Shown here one piece after another: positions 3,694 to 9,812 of a DNA stretch of 64,000 nucleotides. Location: assembly GCF_003609995.1 (NCBI RefSeq), contig NZ_AP018786.1, positions 878,001 to 942,000 on the forward strand. Direction: 5' to 3'. This DNA comes from Sutterella megalosphaeroides. GTDB taxonomy: Bacteria > Pseudomonadota > Gammaproteobacteria > Burkholderiales > Burkholderiaceae_F. The translations under genes were made by a program, and so were the position numbers. The number at the start of each line of letters is the position of its first letter. Within the stretch, counting starts at the first letter, position 1. The notes beneath the pieces are model-generated. The model was given only the letters and a program-made list of their open reading frames with translations. It was not told the origin of the DNA and made no database searches.

Positions 3694-4914
3694 ATGCTTT
3701 TCTCCCGACGTCTTTTCCTCGCGCTCTGCGCGAGCGGAGCGCTCGCGGGTTGCAGCGAGACGCTCCCGACGAAGCGCCGCTCGCCCGTGGCGGCGCTCGA
3801 GCCCGTCAACGTGCAGTTTGCGGGCGTTTCTTTCAGCGGGGACTTCAAGGACAACGAAGCCCATACGCCGTACGCCTACGCCGTTTCGAAGGAGGTGGAT
3901 TTCGACGCGATTTTCCGTCGCAAATTGGCGGCCGTCGATCCGACGAGTTTCAAGAATTTCCGCCTCACGACCGACAATGCGGGCGCTCGAACGACGGATG
4001 TCGGAGCGCAGGCTTTCACGCTCGCCATCGACCTTGAAACCGTGACCGTGAGTCGCTTGGGCAAGAACGAATACAAGGTGATTCTGGACCTCTACGCGAG
4101 CCTTCTCTTTTTCGATTTTTACGAAAAGAAAGTGCTCAACACGCGCCCGATTCACTTGCAGTACGTGACGCTCGAAGCCTCCAAGCCGGGGAAAAAGCGC
4201 TTGCAGGAACTCATGCGCGGCATGTTCACCGGGGGCCTCTCCGGGCTCGATCGCGACCTCTTCGACGTGGCCGTCGAACGACTTCAGACGCTCGAACTCC
4301 TTTCGGGCGACGCGGGCGCGCGCCTCAAGGTGCGCAACGTCACCGTGCACGAGCGCACCGCAGAGGCGCTCCGCTCGGCGGGTATCAAGGCGGACGAACT
4401 CGAAACGCTCTGCGCGCAGCTCGTCACGCGTTCGCTCGTCGACACGCTCGGTCAGCCGATGCTCCCCTACACGAAGGGGCAGGCAATCGGCGCCAAGATG
4501 AGCGGGCGGTTCGTGAACGGCGACGCCTACGCGCTTGTCATTCCCGACGGCGACTACGGGATCGATCTGCAAATCGAGTCGCTTCGCACCGAGCGGCTTC
4601 CCGAAACGGACGAGCGGACCTACGAGCAGGCCTTCTTCACGTTCGTCACGATCTCGGCCTATCAGCCCGATCTCGGCAAAACCTACTTCAAAGAAACCCT
4701 GCGTGGCGTCGGAACGGCGCTCCTGCTTCAGGGGCAGGAGCCCGGCCTCAAAGCCAGCTACCTCGAAACGCTCGTTCGCCTTTTCGACGGGTTCGCTCGC
4801 AACATCGAAAAGCCCGAGGACGAGTGGACGGAGAGCGCCGTGCCGCCCGAGCGCGTCGGAACGCTCGAAACCCAATTCGAACAACTTGAGGAAATGCTCG
4901 AAAAATGTCGCTGA
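3694..4914 (+). CDS. Lipoprotein of unknown function, first gene of the envelope cluster
   Basis: 406 aa. An N-terminal RR followed by a hydrophobic stretch and the lipobox LAGC (Cys about residue 19) mark it as a lipoprotein. No domain is recognised. The body is mixed alpha/beta with no internal membrane segment and ends in a charged helix (EQLEEMLEKC). The ATG at 3694 begins the signal peptide; a TTG seven codons earlier is possible but less likely. The stop codon lies inside the next gene (10-base overlap), so the two are probably translationally coupled. All five genes 3694-9533 encode exported proteins, suggesting a shared envelope task. Function unknown. Confidence 0.8.
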   Translation: MLFSRRLFLALCASGALAGCSETLPTKRRSPVAALEPVNVQFAGVSFSGDFKDNEAHTPYAYAVSKEVDFDAIFRRKLAAVDPTSFKNFRLTTDNAGARTTDVGAQAFTLAIDLETVTVSRLGKNEYKVILDLYASLLFFDFYEKKVLNTRPIHLQYVTLEASKPGKKRLQELMRGMFTGGLSGLDRDLFDVAVERLQTLELLSGDAGARLKVRNVTVHERTAEALRSAGIKADELETLCAQLVTRSLVDTLGQPMLPYTKGQAIGAKMSGRFVNGDAYALVIPDGDYGIDLQIESLRTERLPETDERTYEQAFFTFVTISAYQPDLGKTYFKETLRGVGTALLLQGQEPGLKASYLETLVRLFDGFARNIEKPEDEWTESAVPPERVGTLETQFEQLEEMLEKCR

Positions 4915-6005
4915 AAACTCTTTACGCCGCGCTCGGCACCGCGCTTCTCGTTGCGGGTACGGTTTCTACGCCCGCTTCGGCCGTCGAAGTGAAGGCCACC
5001 GCCACGGTCCCCTATGAGGCGGGGCTCTTTTCGAAGAACCCCACCGACGAAGAAAAGGCGCGTGCCGTCGCCGAAGCCAAACTCGGTGCGATCAAGGAAT
5101 GGTCCGCGTCGCTTTCCCCGGCGCAGCAGCGCCTCTACGCCAAGATCGAGCCTCAGGTGCTCTCTCAGGTCGACCGCTACATTTCGAGCTGGGTGATCGT
5201 GGCCGAGGATCAGGATCGCGGGTTGAAGACCCTCACGCTCGTCGTTCGCGCGAACGTGAACGACAAACTCCTGCGCAGCGAAATGACCGCGCTCGCGGGC
5301 GACGCCGCAGCGCCCGCTCCGGCCGCGGAAGGCCTGATGGCGTCGCTTTTCGTCGCGCGCCTCACGAATTCGAGCACCGCGTTCGAGGCGAAGGTTTCGA
5401 AAGCGAGCGAATCGCAGTCGCAGCGTTCGGCGTCGGCTTCCGGGAGCGGCTCGGGTGTTGAGGAAAGCGCCGAAGAACGTCGTCTCACGACGACGGGCGG
5501 AAGCACCTCCCGCAAGAGCGCGAAGGAAACCTACACGTACCTGTCGAGCGCCGACTTCGACGCCGCCTTCAATGCCGAAATGACGCAGCTCGGGTACGAA
5601 TCCTCCACGTACGGCGACGTCTACGAAACCTGCTCGGGCGGCCCTGCCGTCGAGGCGGTCGAACGCGAATTCATCGCGAAAAACGACATTTCCTCGAAGT
5701 CGAGGAACGGCATGTTCAACGCTGCCCGCGCCTGCGACGTCACGTACTTCACGGTCGGCAACATGGACGTCTCGGTTCCCTACACCGACAGCGTCACCGG
5801 GAACCTCAAGGTCTACGTGTCCGTTTCGGGTCGCGTCTACGACATCACGAAGAAACTCCCGCGCACGCTTGCCTCGGTCGGGCCCATCCTCGCGACGGGC
5901 TTCGGCGAAGACGAAGCGAGTGCGCGCCGCGCGGCGCTTGCCGAAGCCGCAAAACTCGCGGGTCAGGCGGTGGCCGACACGCTTCGCAGCAAGAACGTTC
6001 GCTGA
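4905..6005 (+). CDS. Secreted protein with a FlgT-N/LPP20-like N-terminal region
   Basis: 366 aa with a Sec signal peptide (cleavage near TPASA-VE). After it comes a helix-rich segment beginning ATATVPYEAG, in which many Ala and Glu residues precede VLSQVDRYISSW and a strand TLTLVVRANVNDKLL. This resembles the N-terminal fold of FlgT and LPP20-type proteins, although I can only judge this by pattern. A Ser-rich low-complexity stretch follows (roughly residues 160-190). The second half ends with repeated Ala-Arg helices (SARRAALAEAAKLAG). It overlaps the upstream lipoprotein gene by 10 bases. Probably periplasmic; role unknown. Confidence 0.78.
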   Translation: MSLKTLYAALGTALLVAGTVSTPASAVEVKATATVPYEAGLFSKNPTDEEKARAVAEAKLGAIKEWSASLSPAQQRLYAKIEPQVLSQVDRYISSWVIVAEDQDRGLKTLTLVVRANVNDKLLRSEMTALAGDAAAPAPAAEGLMASLFVARLTNSSTAFEAKVSKASESQSQRSASASGSGSGVEESAEERRLTTTGGSTSRKSAKETYTYLSSADFDAAFNAEMTQLGYESSTYGDVYETCSGGPAVEAVEREFIAKNDISSKSRNGMFNAARACDVTYFTVGNMDVSVPYTDSVTGNLKVYVSVSGRVYDITKKLPRTLASVGPILATGFGEDEASARRAALAEAAKLAGQAVADTLRSKNVR

Positions 6006-6062
6006 TGCGTTCGTCGAACTGTTTTTTTTATTTTCACCACTTGAACATCCAAAGGAACTCCA

Positions 6063-6752
6063 ATGAAAAAGACTCTTCTCGCCGTGCTTTTCTCCGCCGC
6101 CATCCTTTCCCCGGCCGCTCAGGCGTTCGACCTCGGGGGGCTCGCGAGCAAGGCGGGTGCCGTCGCGGGTGCCGTGCAGGGCACGCCCTCGGCGCTGATG
6201 GACGAACAGGCCGCGCTCGTTGCGAGCTACACGAAGGCGTCCGTCAAGGTGCTTGAAGCGCAGCAGATCTTCGCGAACGCGCTCAACCTGAAGAAAGATT
6301 CCGAAAGCCTCTCCAAGGTGATTTCGAGCCTTCAGAGCGGCAACCTTTCGACCTCGGACATCGATGCCGTCAAGGCGCAGAGCGCTTCGATGAACGACAA
6401 GGTGGTGTCCATTCTGAAGGAAAAGCAGAAGCTCACCGACGCGCAGAAGAAGGAACTCACGAACGGTGCGCTGGCCTACGCCGAAGGCGCCGTTTTCTCC
6501 GCCGCCACCGTGGCCGCCGCGAAGAAGTTCGGTACGTCCGCCGCCGACGCCATGAAGAGCGCCGACGTGGCCGGCAAGGCCCTCATTGCGAAGGACGTCG
6601 CCGCGGGCGTCGCCCTCTCGACGAAGTTCCCGGGCCAGGCGGTCGAACTCGTGAAGGGCGGCAAGCAGATGTTCGAACTGATGCAGTCGAACGGCGTTGA
6701 CACGAAGGCTGCGGTCACGAAGTTGAACGACGCCGCTCAGTTCAAGCTCTGA
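6063..6752 (+). CDS. Small secreted helical protein of unknown function
   Basis: 229 aa with a standard Sec signal peptide (MKKTLLAVLF start, cleavage after AAQA). The mature protein is almost entirely predicted helix, rich in Ala, Lys and Ser, lacks Cys and aromatic-rich cores, and has no membrane segment. I recognise no family with certainty. It starts 57 bases after the preceding gene; that gap is A+T-rich and a purine-rich AAAGGA precedes the ATG. A hairpin follows it, so it may be the end of one transcript or a point of partial read-through into the next gene. Confidence 0.78.
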   Translation: MKKTLLAVLFSAAILSPAAQAFDLGGLASKAGAVAGAVQGTPSALMDEQAALVASYTKASVKVLEAQQIFANALNLKKDSESLSKVISSLQSGNLSTSDIDAVKAQSASMNDKVVSILKEKQKLTDAQKKELTNGALAYAEGAVFSAATVAAAKKFGTSAADAMKSADVAGKALIAKDVAAGVALSTKFPGQAVELVKGGKQMFELMQSNGVDTKAAVTKLNDAAQFKL

Positions 6753-6776
6753 TAGGACCGAACGGTCAATCCACGG

Positions 6777-6813
6777 AAAGCGCCCCGCCCGAGCGGTTCG
6801 GCCGGGGCGTTTC
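6777..6813 (+). terminator. Hairpin inside the envelope cluster (terminator or attenuator)
   Basis: Stem GCGCCCCG pairing with CGGGGCG, loop about 15 bases, followed by TTTCC rather than a long T run. It sits in the 92-base gap between the third and fourth cluster genes. Confidence 0.55.
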
Positions 6814-6844
6814 CATCTCGGAACGCTTTTTTGGGAAATACGAC

Positions 6845-8290
6845 ATGCTGAAGACCCAAGTGTTCGCGGCGCTTGCCGCACTCTTCGTGATGGGCGGTGC
6901 ACCGGTTCGGGCCGCGGAAGCGCCCGTCGCTCCCGCCGCCGATGCCACGAACGCGGGCGAACCCGCGCCCGTCGAAACGGCCGTCAACGAAACGGACGCC
7001 TTCTTCGGAGCGGGCTCCGAAATCGACAAGGTCTACCAGGAATGGTTGGATTCGGCGAGCGCGAAGACGCTCGAAGGTTGCAAGAAAAAGGGACGCGACC
7101 TCTCGCAGCCCGAATGCCGTCTGGAGCAGATCATCTACACGGGCGACGCCACGGTGACCGCGGAAAAGACCGACCCGAAGTGGATCGAACGTCGACAGCT
7201 CGCCTTCATGGAAGCGAGCCTCAACGCGCTCGCGCAGTTTGCCGAAGGGCAGAGCCTCACGAACAGCGTTGAAAGCCTGCGCGAATACGTTCAGGACGAT
7301 CGGCCCATTCCCGAAGATCCGTTCCGCGCCAAGGGTCGCATCTCGGAAATGCTCGACAAGGTCATGGCGCTCGGCGATGCGATGCTCAACAAGTACCTGA
7401 ACGACTACGGGGTCGATCCGGCCGCCTACGCGGCGCTTCCTCAGGAAGAGCGCAAGAAGATGCTCGAATTGAAGCTCACGTCCCGCAGCACCATGCGGGC
7501 CGCGGCCGAGATGACGGGGCTCGTGCCGCTCATGACCTTCGAAGGCTCGGACGGTCGGGGCGGTCATGTCGTGCGCGTCGTCTACGTGGCGTCGCCCGAA
7601 CGCGTGAGTACCGCAAAGAGCATCCTTCGCAATCAGGCGAAGATCGGCCCGAACGACGCGAAGAAGAACCCGCGCGGGGTCGCACGCTTCTACGAACTTC
7701 CCCCCGAAAAGCTCTTCACGGCGTACGGCGTTCGCATGGTCTACGACGAAGAAGGCTACCCGGTACTTCTTGCCTACGGCCAGAGCGGCGTGGAAAAGAC
7801 GCCCGACAAGAATCTTCAGGGGATGCTCATCACCCAGGCGCGCAACGACGCCCGCAGCGCCGCCATCAATCAATTGACGCTCCTTTTGCAGTCGTCCGTG
7901 GCGAAGAAAGCGGCGCGCTCGAGCGTGAGCACTCTGGCGAGCGAAGCCGTGAAGGTGCGCAACGCCGACGGGTCGGTGGCCTCGAAGCAGGAAACCGAAA
8001 ATACGCTGTATAAGCAGGTCGAAGAAGCGACCTCGGTGACGGGCCGCATCAGCAACTTCGCGGGCGTTCGCGTCGTGAAGACCTGGCAGTGGGTCGAACC
8101 GCAGAGCCACCTCCCCGTCGTGGGCGCTGTCGTCATGTGGTCGCCCAAGACCGCTTCGGTGTCCGAGGCCATCGCTACGGCCCGTCCCACGAGCCCGAGC
8201 GCTCCGGCTCCCGCTGCGGCCGCCAAGCCCGCCGTGAAGGAAAAGAGCGGCGTGTCTTCCGGACTGGAGGCGGACGACTATGAATTTTAA
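6845..8290 (+). CDS. Large secreted protein of unknown function
   Basis: 481 aa with a Sec signal peptide (cleavage near PVRAAEA) and an Ala/Pro-rich spacer. A helical region follows, containing the lone CKKKGRDLSQPEC Cys pair, then a mixed region (MTFEGSDGRGGHVVRVVYVA, VVKTWQWVEPQSH) that looks like a stable domain. An Ala/Pro tail ends in the acidic LEADDYEF. I recognise no named domain with confidence. Its last 11 bases overlap the start of the next gene in another frame, so the two products are likely made together. The AAATACGAC before the ATG is a weak ribosome site. Confidence 0.75.
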   Translation: MLKTQVFAALAALFVMGGAPVRAAEAPVAPAADATNAGEPAPVETAVNETDAFFGAGSEIDKVYQEWLDSASAKTLEGCKKKGRDLSQPECRLEQIIYTGDATVTAEKTDPKWIERRQLAFMEASLNALAQFAEGQSLTNSVESLREYVQDDRPIPEDPFRAKGRISEMLDKVMALGDAMLNKYLNDYGVDPAAYAALPQEERKKMLELKLTSRSTMRAAAEMTGLVPLMTFEGSDGRGGHVVRVVYVASPERVSTAKSILRNQAKIGPNDAKKNPRGVARFYELPPEKLFTAYGVRMVYDEEGYPVLLAYGQSGVEKTPDKNLQGMLITQARNDARSAAINQLTLLLQSSVAKKAARSSVSTLASEAVKVRNADGSVASKQETENTLYKQVEEATSVTGRISNFAGVRVVKTWQWVEPQSHLPVVGAVVMWSPKTASVSEAIATARPTSPSAPAPAAAAKPAVKEKSGVSSGLEADDYEF

Positions 8291-9533
8291 GAAGCTCTGC
8301 GCGGCCCTCGTTCTTGCCGCAGCCTTCTGCGCCCAAGCGAAGGTCGTAACCGTTGAAACGAGCGGCGTCGGGGCAAGCCCCGACGAAGCGCGCATCAACG
8401 CGCTTCGCGACGCGATCATGCAGGTGACGGGGACGGAACTCAACGTCGAAGCCGTGAGCGTACTGCAGAGTGCCATCCACTCCGAAACGCAAAACGGCGT
8501 CGGCAACCAAACCGTCGCGGTTGACAAGGCTTCTCAGCAAAGCATCATCGAGAATACGAAAGGCTACGTCGAAGGCTTTCGCGTCCTCTCGCGCAACAAG
8601 AACCCGGACGGCACGTACGAGGTGACGCTTTCCGTCGACATCGACAAGTACGACGTCAAGGGCGTCACCGACGAGCGTCGCTCGATTGCCGTGCAGGGGA
8701 TCGGCGTGGAGGGCGCCTGCCGCTGCTTCGGCAAGAACCTTCCCGCCGAGCGCGTGGCTTCGGGGCTTGAAGAAGCGCTGCGCACGGATCTTGTCGGCAC
8801 GCGCAAGTTCGCGGTGCTGAAGCGCGGCGACGCGGGCGTGGCGCTCGAGCGCGAAGCGCTTCGCGACGAAAACGTGCACGCGCGCGAACGCAACCGTCTC
8901 GGTCTCGGGCGCGGTGCGGACTACGTCATCTCGGGGACGATCAAAAACTTCTCGGTTTCGGAGTCGAAGCGTACCGTGAAGCTTACGGGCGACGTGCTGA
9001 CGAGCCGCTCGGCGACCTTCACGGCGCAGCTCGATTTGTCGTTCGTCGCGACCGATCAGGTGAAATTCTCGAAGACCGTCACCGTGCGGCTTTCCGACAA
9101 GGAAATCGGCGGACGCAATTGCGAGGAAGTGCTCGCTCTCGCAAGTTCCCGTGCCGCTCGGGCCATGGTGCACGACGCGACGCGCGACATCTATCCTCCG
9201 ATGATCGTCTCCGTCACGGGCGGGCGCTTCATGGTGAATTACGGGAACGAGGACCTCAAAAAGGGCGACACCTTCGTCGTGAATGCCATGGGTGAGAAAA
9301 TCATCGATCCCTACACCAAGGAGTCGCTCGGTCGCGAGGAGGTGCCCGTGGGCAAGGGCCGCATCGTCGACACGAAGCCGAAGTATTCCGTTCTCGAGCT
9401 GATCGAGGGCGACCCGGCGCTCGTCAAGACGGGCAGCGTCCTTCGTCCTGCGCCCGAAGAGAAGAAGCCCGAACCGAAGGCGGCGCCCTCGAAGAAGGCT
9501 TCGCTCAAGGCGAAGATGGACGAGGCTTGGTAA
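8280..9533 (+). CDS. FlgT-like/CsgG-like envelope protein
   Basis: 417 aa with a Sec signal peptide (cleavage near AFCAQA-KV). The layout recalls FlgT. An N-terminal domain carries the hallmark VGASPDEARINALRDAI pattern (residues about 30-50). A middle CsgG/TolB-N-like domain contains RKFAVLKR and the segment LGRGADYVISGTI. A C-terminal beta region ends in VKTGSVLRP. In Vibrio FlgT builds the flagellar H-ring, and CsgG-type proteins assemble outer-membrane pores. No flagellar gene is visible here, so a non-flagellar envelope role is more likely. It overlaps the upstream gene by 11 bases. A Lys/Pro tail (residues about 390-417) is disordered. Confidence 0.8.
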   Translation: MNFKKLCAALVLAAAFCAQAKVVTVETSGVGASPDEARINALRDAIMQVTGTELNVEAVSVLQSAIHSETQNGVGNQTVAVDKASQQSIIENTKGYVEGFRVLSRNKNPDGTYEVTLSVDIDKYDVKGVTDERRSIAVQGIGVEGACRCFGKNLPAERVASGLEEALRTDLVGTRKFAVLKRGDAGVALEREALRDENVHARERNRLGLGRGADYVISGTIKNFSVSESKRTVKLTGDVLTSRSATFTAQLDLSFVATDQVKFSKTVTVRLSDKEIGGRNCEEVLALASSRAARAMVHDATRDIYPPMIVSVTGGRFMVNYGNEDLKKGDTFVVNAMGEKIIDPYTKESLGREEVPVGKGRIVDTKPKYSVLELIEGDPALVKTGSVLRPAPEEKKPEPKAAPSKKASLKAKMDEAW

Positions 9534-9560: not shown

Positions 9561-9812
9561 GTGGGACTTCGCTTTCAACGACGAATTCGGCTTTTCAAGG
9601 GCGTGTACCTCAACCTCTCGAAAACGGGCGTGAGTTTCTCGCTTCGGGGTCGAGGGGGCGGCATCACGGTCGGTAAGAGAGGACCGCGCGCGAGCGTGGG
9701 GATTCCCGGGACGGGGCTCTCGTACCAAACGAAGCTCGGCTCCGGGGGCGGCGTGATCGGGATCGTGGTCGCCGTCATTGCGGCGATCGTCATCCTCGCT
9801 CAGTTCATTTGA
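9561..9812 (+). CDS. DUF4236-like small membrane protein
   Basis: 83 aa. The N-terminal half has the pattern of DUF4236 proteins: MGLRFQRRIRLFKGVYLNLS, then SKTGVSFSLRGRG and RASVGIPGTGLSYQT. One C-terminal membrane helix follows (GVIGIVVAVIAAIVILAQFI, residues 64-83). Translation starts at a GTG with a strong AAGGAGG eight bases upstream. It lies 27 bases after the FlgT-like gene on the same strand and may be co-transcribed. The biochemical role of this family is unknown. Confidence 0.85.
   Translation: MGLRFQRRIRLFKGVYLNLSKTGVSFSLRGRGGGITVGKRGPRASVGIPGTGLSYQTKLGSGGGVIGIVVAVIAAIVILAQFI

Follow-up and report, generated by a model that had tools for sequence, protein, structure and literature searches.

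The stretch of DNA analysed here, referred to as the window, is 64,000 nucleotides long and corresponds to positions 878001-942000 of the 2.73 Mb, single-contig genome of Sutterella megalosphaeroides. It contains a cluster of five genes, termed A to E, with a stem-loop between C and D and a further gene downstream of E. The window coordinates of these features are as follows:

3694-4914, + strand: gene A, 406 aa, exported lipoprotein with the lipobox LAGC, family without a name
4905-6005, + strand: gene B, 366 aa, secreted, predicted N-terminal FlgT-N/Lpp20-type domain, family without a name
6063-6752, + strand: gene C, 229 aa, secreted, Ala/Lys-rich, probably helical, family without a name
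6775-6814, + strand: stem-loop in the C-D gap, folding z-score -2.1
6845-8290, + strand: gene D, 481 aa, secreted, Pfam DUF6844
8280-9533, + strand: gene E, 417 aa, secreted, FlgT-like, Pfam CsgG
9561-9812, + strand: DUF4236 gene, 67 bits against a cut-off of 27, good ribosome-binding site

An earlier note on this DNA described five co-directional genes with two overlapping pairs, and this description is borne out: all five open reading frames lie on the + strand, A/B and D/E overlap by 10 and 11 bases, respectively, and B-C and C-D are separated by spacers of 57 and 92 bases. The codon-position G+C content of the five open reading frames (0.79-0.85 at third positions and 0.42-0.51 at second positions) is typical of real genes, and A to E are taken as such. 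The G+C content of the cluster (0.628) is close to that of the window (0.637) and thus gives no sign of recent import, and no matches of the cluster to defence-system or phage families were found. The DUF4236 gene starts 27 bases downstream of E in the same direction but was not counted in the cluster because no counterpart was seen beside the clusters of the relatives. An apparent sigma-70 promoter inside E was rejected as being within chance. The stem-loop that follows C may act as a partial terminator or as a hairpin for RNA processing. Stem-loops are also found 3' of C in an uncultured Duodenibacillus (L046, 11041-11128, z -2.65) and in a second species of the same genus as the window (L020, 8436-8552, z -1.3, weak); the three stem-loops have no sequence identity, and their recurrence is only suggestive.

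The cluster was originally read as encoding one lipoprotein and four Sec-exported proteins. Export signals are present in all five proteins, and ordinary signal peptides can be read from the sequences of B, C, D, and E. The part of the reading that is less secure is the export route of A, as its lipobox is preceded by SRRLFLA, which looks like a twin-arginine signal, and A may be exported by the Tat system instead of Sec. Window E begins MNFKKLCAALVLAAAFCAQAK and has no lipobox. In five relatives (L085-L089) the lipid anchor is swapped, being carried by E and absent from A, whereas it is found on A in the window; in most relatives, as in the window, E lacks it.

Searches of Pfam, NCBIfam, and the PDB with A gave nothing above chance, and its structural model, calculated from a two-sequence alignment, had a mean pLDDT of 34 and is not usable. 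C had no match in Pfam or NCBIfam. D matches Pfam DUF6844 at 69 bits (cut-off 27), and this family is matched by 14 of the 14 aligned D homologs; no paper naming DUF6844 was found in the literature. As a single sequence D matches the solved Francisella protein FTT_1539c (4QVR) with an E-value of 8.7e-19, and the D family profile, which includes close Francisella-type homologs, matches it at 8e-149. The tail of D is of low complexity, looks disordered, and ends in DDYEF. In 13 of 13 D proteins whose C-terminus is complete, the sequence closes with F, W, or Y, compared with 18% of the open reading frames called in the same loci, where the 13 ends belong to homologs and are not independent and the reading frames in the relatives were called by a simple script. 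The aromatic C-terminus of D is perhaps a docking peptide.

Two of the five proteins have features that resemble FlgT. E matches Pfam CsgG at 23.6 bits (cut-off 20.8) over profile positions 33-159 of 210, and the same family is matched by 10 of 13 E homologs at an E-value of 0.01. The match of E to FlgT_M is below the cut-off (15.8 bits versus 31.2), which among the E homologs is passed by that of L042 alone, and the match to LPP20 over residues 29-120 is weak and also below the cut-off (14.0 bits). When a profile of 13 E homologs was compared with a profile of eight FlgT-type proteins picked with the FlgT_M model, a match of 98.7% was obtained over 240 columns, which take in the middle domain and then the C-terminal domain. 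In a separate profile comparison, no match to FlgT was seen for the E N region; the B profile compared with the E N region gave 61.5%. The E profile also matched the solved C-terminal domain of TsaP (6ve2) with an E-value of 1.1e-11 and gave weak matches to CsgG structures. From these sequence comparisons, E appears to be laid out as an N region, a CsgG/FlgT-M-like middle, and a FlgT-C/TsaP-C-like end, in agreement with the FlgT/CsgG-like layout proposed in the earlier note. The C-terminal residue of E is W in the window, in the lipoprotein E of L085-L089, and in those clusters of the other version of the gene module (discussed below) that come from the Duodenibacillus family.

The CsgG match could also be explained if E formed a pore in the outer membrane, as CsgG does, for the export of a subunit. 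C, which is small, is a candidate for this subunit, and the stem-loop 3' of C could raise its expression; in addition, E is a lipoprotein in L085-L089. This explanation is weakened by the lack of a lipid anchor on window E, for which the suggestion of a CsgG-type pore is not upheld, and on the E of most relatives. The CsgG match is moreover partial, non-pore FlgT and LpoB relatives match the profile likewise, and the five proteins match no other curli or amyloid families in Pfam or NCBIfam; we regard a pore as quite improbable. The TsaP match brings in another possibility, namely that a trans-envelope machine other than a flagellum, for example a type IV pilus secretin, has E as its accessory ring, in the style of TsaP. 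E has no LysM domain, and no pilus or secretin genes adjoin the cluster in the loci examined; we consider a ring of this kind improbable.

No domain was found in window B with Pfam or NCBIfam, and the B relative from Duodenibacillus matched FlgT_N weakly (E 0.0087). The AlphaFold2 model of B is confident only for approximately residues 25-130, with residues 27-125 modelled at a pLDDT of mostly 75-92 and much of the rest at a pLDDT below 50. The best Foldseek matches of this N-domain were Helicobacter Tip-alpha and Lpp20. With VIA-align, the top match of B residues 27-125 was to FlgT residues 1-90 (3w1e), with a Z score of 6.7 and 2.2 Å over 72 residues, and Tip-alpha (Z 6.4) and Lpp20 (6.1) came next, ahead of a flagellar ring entry recently obtained by cryo-EM (5.8) and the dodecins (5.1-5.7); these scores are nearly tied and below 8, and the likeness is therefore one at the level of the fold. 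In this fold-level sense B is predicted to start with a FlgT-N/Lpp20-type domain, and the modelled domain agrees with the FlgT-N-like start that had been assigned to B from its sequence. The concern that neither a FlgT nor a CsgG fold would be found in these proteins is answered by the sequence profiles of E and the modelled domain of B.

The B N-domain can be compared with Lpp20/HP1454 of H. pylori, whose Lpp20/Tip-alpha fold it is predicted to have (Z 6.1-6.4), although no sequence similarity to B was detected. The H. pylori exported proteins are, like those of the cluster, encoded in one operon and, unlike the cluster, no CsgG/FlgT-type hub appears in the account of that operon (PMC11756786). 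The same source describes FlgP and FlgT as disc-forming flagellar accessory proteins with a likeness to Lpp20.

The genes A, B, C, and E make up a conserved operon. The complete A-B-C-D-E cluster is found in the second species of the same genus (G007, L020), and in the uncultured Duodenibacillus of the same family (G718, L046) the genes after A-B-C-E encode a protein of 394 aa and one that resembles D. A-B-C-E is also found in three genomes of one genus that belongs to a family outside the order (G154, L050; G738, L085; G825, L086), in two genomes from another family of the same order (G304, L087; G254, L088), and in Cupriavidus metallidurans CH34, where it lies on NC_007974 (L089, 4856-9190). 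The order A-B-C-(D)-E is thus kept in L020, L046, L050, and L085-L089, which represent at least three families, and the idea that the gene order might be conserved nowhere clearly fails. Rearranged versions are present in a distant gammaproteobacterium (G659, L041; D-B-E-x-A) and on a plasmid of Caballeronia SBC2 (L090, 2274-7638; E-x-x-A-B-C). The two genes marked x on the Caballeronia plasmid encode small exported proteins, one of which ends in HADEF, and two integrase genes are found further on.

Homologs of A were found in L020, L046, L041, and L085-L090, those of B in these same loci and in L050, and those of C, adjoining B, in L020, L046, L050, and L085-L090. An A profile built without L041 recovers the L041 copy at an E-value of 1.7e-12. 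A candidate relative of C in L041 was rejected, as the profile comparison gave a probability of only 12%. The 10-base overlap of A and B recurs in L085-L089, which suggests that the two genes are translationally coupled. B is rare, with copies in 3 of 67 genomes in the family and 6 of 398 in the phylum sample, and in 3 of 369 genomes in the class with a narrower model, where each count includes the genome of the window; the patchy spread within the family argues against a housekeeping role. Two scans of genome contigs yielded Duodenibacillus only. D is absent from five A-B-C-E loci and is therefore not part of the core. Most branches in the trees of E and D are without resolution.

A second arrangement also contains D and E, the latter in some cases as a short form, together with genes for a TPR lipoprotein and LpoB. 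This arrangement is found in other genomes of the same genus and family, in Azospirillum (L025), in Francisella-type genomes (L038-L040), and in others; within the family of the window YcfL is also found beside D/E in it, and D and E adjoin each other in both versions. A search for LpoB and YcfL covered 14 genomes, five with A-B-C and nine with the other version. In the five A-B-C genomes, nothing but E matched LpoB and nothing matched YcfL, whereas LpoB was over the cut-off in nine of the nine other genomes and beside D in eight of them, a split that is only suggestive as the genomes are partly related. Comparison of A, B, and C with the TPR lipoprotein, YcfL, and LpoB profiles gave nothing (the best value was 5.4%, from signal peptides only), so that the proposal that A, B, and C replace these proteins is based on position and on presence and absence, not on homology. 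A-B-C-E is best seen as the second version of a wider, undescribed module that consists of a TPR lipoprotein, YcfL in some cases, LpoB, DUF6844, and a FlgT-like protein. Duodenibacillus (L046, 12401-15303) and G011 (L024, 3020-5875) have an additional pair of proteins in common, though these two loci carry different versions of the module. One protein of the pair is 394-399 aa long, and the other is a divergent relative of DUF6844, with a D-likeness of 99.2% for the L046 and L024 copies taken together.

LpoB stimulates PBP1B, and the UB2H domain of E. coli PBP1B is the LpoB binding site. The cluster has a likeness to E. coli ycfL-lpoB in that LpoB- and YcfL-family genes adjoin D and E in close relatives. 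E and its partners might accordingly bridge the distance between the outer membrane and a penicillin-binding protein, which they would stimulate as LpoB stimulates PBP1B, and the presence of LpoB itself in the other version of the module would fit such a role. The middle domain of E is LpoB-like in several relatives, where it passes the Pfam LpoB cut-off in L029, L042, and L046, but window E is below that cut-off (15.4 bits versus 22.3). Unlike the E. coli system, neither LpoB nor YcfL was found in this genome, and no PBP1B UB2H domain over the cut-off was found in this genome, in G007, in G718, or in the Francisella-type genome G401, although G401 keeps LpoB. The best UB2H match in this genome is 21.7 bits (cut-off 27) and covers 43 of 85 positions. 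The lack of UB2H over the cut-off here and in the Francisella-type genome weakens the activation of PBP1B as an explanation, and we consider it unlikely.

The Francisella genes FTT1537c-1540c are predicted to form a single operon, and an insertion mutant of FTT1538c showed normal growth in vitro and modest attenuation, with polar effects being possible (PMC4696196). FTT1538c was ~100-fold enriched in outer-membrane vesicles (PMC6795709), FTT1539c was repeatedly seen as an immunoreactive vesicle protein (PMC10963506; PMC4207810), and FTT1540c is annotated as LpoB (PMC8149597). FTT1539c belongs to the D family and, by the gene order in L039, FTT1538c is read as an E-type protein; E compared with the neighbouring Francisella E-type protein gave 98.9%. 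The FTT1537c-FTT1540c operon is therefore like the window cluster in that FTT_1539c is homologous to D and is a neighbour of an E-type protein. It is unlike the cluster in that LpoB and a TPR lipoprotein take the place of A, B, and C and in that its E-type protein is shorter and lacks the N region. A location in the cell envelope is supported by the export signals of the five proteins together with the vesicle data on the D and E families from Francisella.

FlgT is the flagellar H-ring protein of Vibrio. The earlier note considered the cluster to have no flagellum and to lie in a region with no flagellar genes, and the absence of a flagellum is supported genome-wide by the lack of a match to FlhA, which was positive in four of 14 control genomes; as FlhA was the only marker used, this is one-marker evidence. 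The cluster resembles FlgT in that E aligns over the FlgT middle and C-terminal domains and the modelled B N-domain fits the FlgT N-domain. It differs in that E is below the FlgT_M cut-off and is encoded with A, B, C, and D, not with flagellar genes, in a genome with no FlhA match. In another genome, G146 (L031, 991-10955), the genes for the TPR lipoprotein, LpoB, DUF6844, and E directly adjoin flagellin genes, one of which was confirmed by Pfam, and a flagellar link of the module is possible in that genome.

We favor, with modest confidence, a reading in which the operon encodes a multi-protein periplasmic complex that is attached to the outer membrane through one lipid-anchored subunit, has E as its hub, and serves as an envelope scaffold. 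The outer-membrane anchor would be A in the window and E in Cupriavidus and in L085-L088. E would be the hub, as it is the sole member common to every cluster version and has the FlgT domain plan, B would contribute another FlgT-N/Lpp20-type domain, and D (DUF6844) and C would be accessory parts. A, B, and C would stand in for the LpoB-type and TPR lipoproteins of the other version of the module. We infer binding among the products, assembly of the FlgT-like domains into a ring or disc, and a role of the complex as an envelope scaffold. The complex is limited as a reading by the middling Z score of 6.7, the failed model of A, and the portion of B with a pLDDT below 50. The fold predicted for B is also present in proteins that are not known as ring-formers, such as dodecins, which form small cages, and Tip-alpha. 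The more specific proposal of a non-flagellar, outer-membrane-attached ring or disc of FlgT/Lpp20-type domains, with the LpoB/DUF6844/FlgT-like operon of Francisella and other bacteria as its sister version, would amount to a new envelope structure and is put forward as tentative and rather unlikely. The suggestion that these proteins build another envelope structure is supported as far as the location is concerned, and the building of a structure remains a proposal.

The cluster probably encodes a previously undescribed part of the cell envelope. Three nameless families, A, B, and C, are kept together in a single operon with a FlgT-like protein across several bacterial families. One of the carriers, Cupriavidus metallidurans, is an environmental species that can be cultured and would be suited to the study of A, B, and C. 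Through the connection of the cluster to DUF6844 and LpoB, two well-known, unexplained Francisella vesicle antigens are placed in a defined gene module. If the ring is true, FlgT-type ring building would exist without flagella, which would bear on the origin of the flagellar accessory rings.
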